Source: an uncultured Glaciecola sp.
GTDB lineage: Bacteria; Pseudomonadota; Gammaproteobacteria; Enterobacterales; Alteromonadaceae
Reading direction: 5' to 3'
DNA: 64,000 nt
Assembly: GCA_905479945.1 (NCBI GenBank)
Contig: CAJQOP010000025.1
Coordinates: 1-64,000, forward strand
Positions 44,510 through 45,342 of this stretch are shown here, in pieces. A model generated the notes under the pieces. That model was given only the letters and a program-made list of their open reading frames with translations, did not search any database and had not been told where the DNA came from. Within the stretch, counting starts at the first letter, position 1. Each line of letters begins with the position of its first letter. A program made the position numbers and the translations under genes.

Positions 44510-44808
44510 ATTTGCACTCGTAGTTGACCCGATAAAAATTTTTTAAGTCTAAATTGACGGCTATAGTATATAACGTTTTGGCTTGACCAACTCGACACTT
44601 CGGCAAAGCAGAGCAGCATTGACTCAGTTTAAAGCTCGCTAATATTATTAAGTGGTCTTGTTCTCTAAAAAATTCACTATAAAATCACCCACCTTTTTGT
44701 AAAATTTACTCTGTGTAATTTTCATTGTGAAATTAGTCATAAAAATGCGCTATGCTCATTGTGTAGAAATTGCTAAGACTTAAATTGAGACACACTGGAG
44801 AATTCATT

Positions 44809-45261
44809 ATGACAATGCCAATCGCTGACACTAATCGCATCGAAATACAAAAACAAACAAATTCGCCAGAGCGAGCCATGCCTTTTTTCAATATTCGTCA
44901 GCATAAAGATTCAAATGTGCTTAACAGTTACTTCGAGCCGAGCGAAATATTAGACCAACACTTTGCATTACAAAACGGCTCGCACAAAAATGTTAAGCAA
45001 TACGTGATTTACTTCCGCCACATCATGGCATTTTTTGCAGACGGCAGTCATTGCGGTTTAGCTCAACCAAAACAATTTGTCGCTTTTGCCGGCTATAAAG
45101 ATACCCCAGAATCAATAGTGCTAAAGGAAAATAGCGTTCATGTCGAGTTAGTTCTTAATACTCGTAACAATGTAAATCAAGGTAAGAGCGTTATGCATAT
45201 TGAATTCCCTGTGCAAAGCACATTTACGTCTACTACCGATGACGATTACTTCGTTGAGTAA
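44809..45261 (+). CDS. Stand-alone protein resembling the inserted alpha/beta domain of malate synthase G
   Basis: A 150-residue protein; ATG 44809 follows GGAG at 8 bases. Residues about 55-115 follow the order of motifs in the inserted domain of malate synthase G: FALQNGSHKNVKQYVIY, then an FADGS turn, PKQFVAFAGYKD, and IVLKENSVHVEL. Malate synthase G has (from memory) ENGSYQDV, TPAQFVGYRG and LLKNNGLHIEL in the same order and spacing. The catalytic TIM barrel and active-site residues are absent, so it cannot be a malate synthase alone. It could bind or regulate one. A strong terminator follows. Confidence 0.6.
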   Translation: MTMPIADTNRIEIQKQTNSPERAMPFFNIRQHKDSNVLNSYFEPSEILDQHFALQNGSHKNVKQYVIYFRHIMAFFADGSHCGLAQPKQFVAFAGYKDTPESIVLKENSVHVELVLNTRNNVNQGKSVMHIEFPVQSTFTSTTDDDYFVE

Positions 45262-45303: not shown

Positions 45304-45342
45304 AAGTGTAAATGACGCTTTGATAAGTCGTCATTTACACTT
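45304..45342 (+). terminator. Intrinsic terminator
   Basis: Perfect 14-base arms AAGTGTAAATGACG and CGTCATTTACACTT surround an 11-base loop, followed by TTGTTATTT. It ends the malate synthase G-like domain gene. Confidence 0.85.

Follow-up and report, generated by a model that had tools for sequence, protein, structure and literature searches.

The gene at positions 44809..45261 (+) of the window, the 64,000-nucleotide stretch of Glaciecola DNA analysed here, encodes a 150-amino-acid protein that is a free, barrel-less alpha/beta insert domain of malate synthase G (MSG), of the type-2, regulator-linked lineage. The protein is homologous to MSG and has lost its catalytic part; its family is matched one to one by an operator, linked to a regulator and found together with other malate synthases, and the gene is under purifying selection. 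The explanation that best covers the whole, to which we give slightly less than an even chance, is that a type-2 MSG lost its barrel and that the insert domain was kept in the circuit of the regulator. An enzyme piece has apparently been retained for a non-catalytic job. For the MSG insert domain, evolution has here run the dissection itself, removing the catalytic part at least twice and keeping the insert under selection together with its own regulator.

Sequence and predicted fold of the fragment

The open reading frame begins with the ATG at 44809 and its stop codon ends at 45261, as originally predicted. The ribosome site, which had been called good, is GGAG (44797..44800, +), 8 nt before the ATG, and the leaders of the orthologues also carry GGAG or GAGG-type sites. 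The strong terminator that had been claimed stands in part: a 3′ hairpin (45305..45341, +) folds with −23.7 kcal/mol over 75 bases and is a likely transcription terminator, but its T run is poor and a consensus terminator scan did not list it. The long promoter region of the same prediction holds a predicted 37-bp operator, which had been overlooked. The closest relatives of the gene in named genomes are from Glaciecola.

PF20658 (MSG_insertion) is the sole Pfam family in the 150-aa protein, with 53.5 bits (E 2.8e-14; gathering score 24.8) over residues 46–106 (44944..45126, +), which form the core of this family and the end of the first insert segment. In a phmmer search against the PDB, residues 47–132 align with residues 173–257 of E. 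coli MSG (E 2.8e-7); the MSG-like motifs noticed earlier are in register with the enzyme, and the resemblance is far above chance. PF01274 and PF20659, the TIM barrel and the C-terminal domain, gave no Pfam match in the protein, and a search of the window DNA for the N-terminal and barrel/C-terminal parts of MSG found none, in agreement with the predicted absence of the catalytic barrel.

The alpha/beta domain of E. coli MSG is reportedly made of two insertions into the barrel. Residues 139–150 of the window protein (FTSTTDDDYFVE; 45223..45258, +) correspond by alignment to the end of the second insert segment, where FTSTTDDDYFV aligns with FNCKDGEEYRL of full MSG, and they are fused directly to the first segment; in full-length type-2 MSGs, 80–90 residues of barrel and linker separate the two retained parts. 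Since the last twelve residues represent the FNCKDGEEYRL segment, the ends of the two insert segments are joined and the intervening stretch is missing. As judged by this alignment, the window protein is a two-part MSG alpha/beta domain from which the barrel segment between the parts has been deleted. It terminates at the equivalent of EEYRL, upstream of GRSLL..RNVGHLM, DEERRT, DRTGDE and MEDRAT of type-2 MSG. The catalytic Arg/Glu/Asp/Asp residues, which we take to lie in the barrel and the C-terminal domain, all align outside the retained parts, and malate synthase activity is not expected of the fragment.

The structural model of the fragment has a mean pLDDT of 69.7, with residues 41–115 well predicted, strands at 137–141 and 146–149, and a low-complexity stretch (residues 1–39, pLDDT below 50) that is predicted to be disordered. 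A fold comparison, proposed earlier as a check on the relationship, returned malate synthase G for all 50 of the PDB matches listed by Foldseek, the best being 1p7t_A (E 1.6e-7, probability 1.00). The fragment thus resembles MSG (GlcB; TIGR01345; PDB 1d8c, 5oas, 1n8i) in the sequence and predicted fold of the alpha/beta insert, but has none of its N-terminal domain, TIM barrel, C-terminal domain and catalytic residues. These comparisons bear on the idea that the free domain is a sensor or buffer of a small molecule (acetyl-CoA, glyoxylate or a related compound) with no protein partner. The PrpR-like control described below would fit a metabolite-responsive circuit of this kind, but no ligand-binding family besides MSG appears among the Pfam or PDB matches. 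In addition, the substrates in solved MSG structures sit in the barrel and the C-terminal domain and the insert domain is not known to contact them, which counts against the idea; we regard it as improbable.

The protein had been taken for an orphan, which it is not. In NCBIfam it matches NF006511/PRK08951 ('malate synthase', 190 aa) with 122.3 bits (E 2.1e-35), below the cutoff of 173, followed by malate synthase G. The members of NF006511/PRK08951 are also free, barrel-less MSG insert domains in the same clade as the window gene, so the fragment family is already named; the Shewanella/Vibrio-type short forms (L040, L041, L042, L043 and L044) exceed the cutoff. The window protein differs in that it matches 127 of the 190 positions, is shorter and is encoded away from the regulator's side. 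Truncated genes (open frames up to 360 aa) number 58 in 46 of 296 genomes sampled evenly across the order, and the window genome contains two further MSG relatives. The name 'malate synthase' is misleading for NF006511/PRK08951 because the catalytic part is missing. Catalysis-free members in public plasmid records are labelled 'malate synthase' (as in NZ_CP141289.1 and NZ_CP099918.1; H6 and H8) or 'hypothetical protein', and genes of this short type that carry the former label cannot be that enzyme.

The operator and the DUF3612 regulator

The predicted operator (44698..44734, +) is composed of three 9-bp direct repeats with a 14-bp period: TGTAAAATT (44698–44706, +), TGTGTAATT (44712–44720, +) and TGTGAAATT (44726–44734, +). 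It shows 0 mismatches to a consensus that was derived from the regulator/MSG-fragment intergenic regions of other genera. The repeats are TGTRAAATT-like, and the pattern TGTAAAATTyACnnTGTrwAATTnnnnTTGTGAAATT is common to all intergenic regions inspected. Shuffles of the window give an expectation of 0 such sites, and a scan of 61 relatives gave 25. Across the 296 genomes, 85 sites were found in 73 genomes, each upstream of an MSG-domain gene of its own at a distance of no more than 1.5 kb; no site in these genomes lies away from MSG-domain genes, and a reversed control pattern gave no match. All 58 truncated genes carry the operator, as do 27 of the 89 full-length MSG genes, and the window gene has kept it despite relocation away from the regulator. 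This match of operator to gene family in 85 of 85 cases offers a precise and cheap test of what the insert domain does, and it gives the so far undescribed DUF3612 family a putative regulon.

The gene of the regulator, 512 aa with HTH_3 and DUF3612 domains, is located on another contig of the window genome (G000:C3), divergent from a second truncated MSG gene that encodes 334 aa; the window gene has no DUF3612 gene adjacent to it. A divergent DUF3612 gene also flanks the short forms of other genera and full-length type-2 MSGs. In named genomes (Glaciecola, Opacimonas, Shewanella, Pseudoalteromonas, Rheinheimera, Arsukibacterium, Reinekea, Colwellia and Motilimonas), the regulator is directly adjacent in 75 of 80 related loci, the five exceptions being four relocated Glaciecola orthologues of the window gene and one Arsukibacterium locus with a truncated regulator. 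In Arsukibacterium perlucidum (L112 5369–5587), residues 8–80 are the only part of the regulator found next to the short gene and its intact operator, either through truncation or through an assembly fault. DUF3612 occurs in 72 of the 296 genomes, and all 72 bear a site; the agreement is 72/73, and the single site-bearing genome without DUF3612 has a site with 3 mismatches. The DUF3612 regulator probably binds the triple-repeat operator. A proposed −10 element, TATGCT (44751..44756, +), read from the sequence, follows the third repeat after 16 bp, and a TAtgCT/TAgaCT-like element occurs at the same distance in many regulator/MSG intergenic regions. This spacing would place the regulator as an activator, the direction of control being a proposal.

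The top six Foldseek matches of the regulator model (mean pLDDT 69.7) are to M. tuberculosis PrpR (E from 3.5e-8, for 6cyj, to 1.3e-7), and the model also matches IrrE/PprI. Four cysteines, C379, C497, C503 and C509, are invariant with the spacing C-X5-C-X5-C, compared with Cys363 and C-X2-C-X4-C in MtPrpR. In MtPrpR, a [4Fe4S] cluster controls the binding of CoA and short acyl-CoAs, and together with RamB this protein governs the methylcitrate cycle and the glyoxylate shunt (PMC6765138). The DUF3612 regulator resembles MtPrpR/RamB (PMC6765138; Paracoccus RamB, PMC10370305) in its N-terminal HTH_3, a weak IrrE-like match, a predicted fold closest to that of MtPrpR and probable aceA/aceB targets, and perhaps in its conserved cysteines. 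In contrast to these proteins, it ends in a DUF3612 domain (NCBIfam RamB score 20.6, cutoff 700), its predicted operator is a triple direct repeat, and the gene that it consistently appears to target encodes an MSG insert domain. The structural model suggests that the DUF3612 regulator may sense CoA or acyl-CoA.

Outside the order, the regulator gene faces aceB-aceA, aceA-MSG, or a 137-aa fragment with aceA after it, and the operators there are variants. Nine genomes, eight of the Vibrio family and one of the Shewanella family, carry a form of the operator with two repeats upstream of aceB in their aceBA loci (L212 4874–4896, L213 4804–4826, L214 4991–5013, L215 5593–5615 and L226–L230); in Glaciecola it is not found there. 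The position of the regulator beside aceA/aceB in other orders, together with the two-repeat sites at aceB, ties it to the glyoxylate shunt, and the reading of the DUF3612 protein as a glyoxylate-shunt regulator is well supported by these gene arrangements. A lone two-repeat operator-like site (L232 4872–4894, G056) is intergenic, with no MSG, aceA or aceB gene near it.

Truncation, selection and co-occurrence with other malate synthases

Whole-genome search of the window genome gave three matches: the window gene, the 334-aa truncated form (G000:C3, L049 8039–9043) and an intact 762-aa type-1 MSG, glcB (G000:C5), the full-length gene for which a search had been advised. The 334-aa copy, which retains an N-terminal part and, in degenerate form, the start of the barrel but is devoid of the catalytic stretches, is conserved beside the DUF3612 regulator in several Glaciecola with low dN/dS. 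It is 55% identical to the window gene, and glcB is 30% identical. A tree of the insert domain, built on 81 columns and with many open forks, separates type-1 MSG from type-2 MSG and the truncated insert domains (SH-aLRT 96). The window gene clusters with four Glaciecola orthologues (support 98), then with the short forms of Glaciecola HTCC2999 and Opacimonas, still beside the regulator (97), and then with the short forms of Pseudoalteromonas/Colwellia (83). The 334-aa Glaciecola forms cluster with a full-length type-2 MSG (86), apart from the window clade, which indicates that truncation occurred at least twice and that the window genome holds two of its products. Descent of the window gene from the genome's own type-1 glcB goes against both the tree and the identities. 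A frameshifted or broken full-length MSG was also considered and rejected, as no barrel sequence was found next to the window gene, nor next to the short forms at the named loci. In G486, outside the order, a 188-aa MSG-insert protein (L250 1306–1872) on a very long and insecurely placed branch occurs in the same genome as a full-length type-2 MSG.

The fragment gene is under purifying selection. Between the five close Glaciecola orthologues dN/dS is 0.07–0.22, values that are rough because synonymous sites are near saturation and that are still far below 1. Together with the conserved operator, they bear out the original view of a functional gene. They also effectively refute the notion of a decaying remnant kept by chance beside the regulator, for which one could cite the truncation itself and the low-complexity, disordered N-terminus: the 58 truncated genes all keep the operator and an open frame, and the relocated copy too has its operator. 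Type-2 and truncated forms, but not type-1 MSG, conserve residues Y68, H71, A74, F75, F76, G83 and A92. A binding surface that has nothing to do with the barrel would be expected to show such a lineage-specific set.

All 46 genomes with a truncated form contain another malate synthase, AceB in 40 and type-1 MSG in 18. By contrast, 20 of the 27 genomes with an operator-bearing full-length MSG have no other malate synthase and 7 do (46/46 versus 7/27, Fisher p 2e-12, uncorrected for shared ancestry). Truncated forms and operator-bearing full-length (type-2) forms never share a genome among the 296. The survey of the short form that had been called for also bears on the earlier suggestion that the fragment regulates or competes with MSG. 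Full-length MSG is missing from 28 of the 46 truncated-form genomes, which argues against an MSG partner as a general role. The intact type-1 MSG of the window genome and a fragment directly after glcB in one Vibrio-family genome (L043) would be compatible with competition, but the lineage-specific surface is unlike that of type-1 MSG; as a general role it is refuted, and what is left of it we consider highly unlikely. E. coli MSG is a monomer. In nine Vibrio-family genomes a further short copy does not lie beside the regulator (L043 8502–9074; L235–L237 and L240–L245); this copy in L043 directly follows the type-1 glcB and in L236 lies more distantly from it.

Proposed origin and role

We propose that the ancestor was a type-2 MSG in a glyoxylate-shunt operon with aceA, opposite a dedicated PrpR/RamB-like DUF3612 regulator. 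The presence of another malate synthase (AceB or type-1 MSG) would have made the type-2 barrel redundant, and the barrel would have been deleted on at least two separate occasions, sparing the insert domain together with the operator and the regulator. The regulator would then turn on the fragment gene from the triple-repeat operator, and the fragment would tune the regulator and, through it, aceBA in some genera. Acting as a partner or feedback subunit, the fragment may modulate the response of the acyl-CoA-sensing regulator to acetate or fatty-acid carbon. The copy in the Glaciecola window would be a second, relocated member of the regulon.

What the fragment constantly accompanies is the regulator, and not MSG, AceB or any single kind of AceA; this speaks for a co-regulator. 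That the domain was kept because it acts with the regulator is a reading that we hold tentatively, at a little below an even chance. The window genome carries the operator at its two MSG fragments only, with none above threshold at the aceA/glcB locus; half-sites TGTAAAATTTAC elsewhere in the genome (C43 and C114) do not extend to a second repeat. The circuit there has therefore no visible output except itself, and this scarcity of other Glaciecola targets counts against a co-regulator. So does G337, outside the order, where the regulator accompanies aceBA with no MSG domain at all, which indicates that it can work without the fragment. With still less confidence, at roughly one chance in three, we suggest that the MSG insert was a regulatory module already communicating with the PrpR-like regulator within the type-2 enzyme, and that in many marine gammaproteobacteria the enzyme was lost more than once and this module alone was kept, as a dedicated co-regulator protein.

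The gene order around type-2 MSG also bears on a possible but rather unlikely alternative, in which the fragment modulates the activity of a shunt enzyme that is not MSG but AceA (isocitrate lyase), the most plausible target, or AceB. The type-2 insert would dock onto AceA for substrate hand-over, the free domain would preserve this contact, and the regulator would only set the level of the fragment. Isocitrate lyase comes after type-2 MSG, and the two genes adjoin in 5 of 5 inspected loci; a 137-aa fragment of G576, a genome outside the order, lies directly between the regulator and aceA, all in one direction; and a target outside the regulator would explain a regulon of fragment genes alone. 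However, the isocitrate lyase found with type-2 MSG is the 530-aa kind, that of Vibrio-/Shewanella-type aceBA is a kind of about 440 aa with 27–28% identity, and the fragment is mostly encoded far from aceA.

The open-access literature, to which the search was confined (subscription papers lay outside it), yielded no paper naming PRK08951 or DUF3612. Within that search, the reductive origin of the fragment, the regulon of one operator and one family, and the partner with its PrpR-like fold are apparently new. A V. cholerae transcriptomics list contains a hypothetical protein, VC0735, between malate synthase A and isocitrate lyase.
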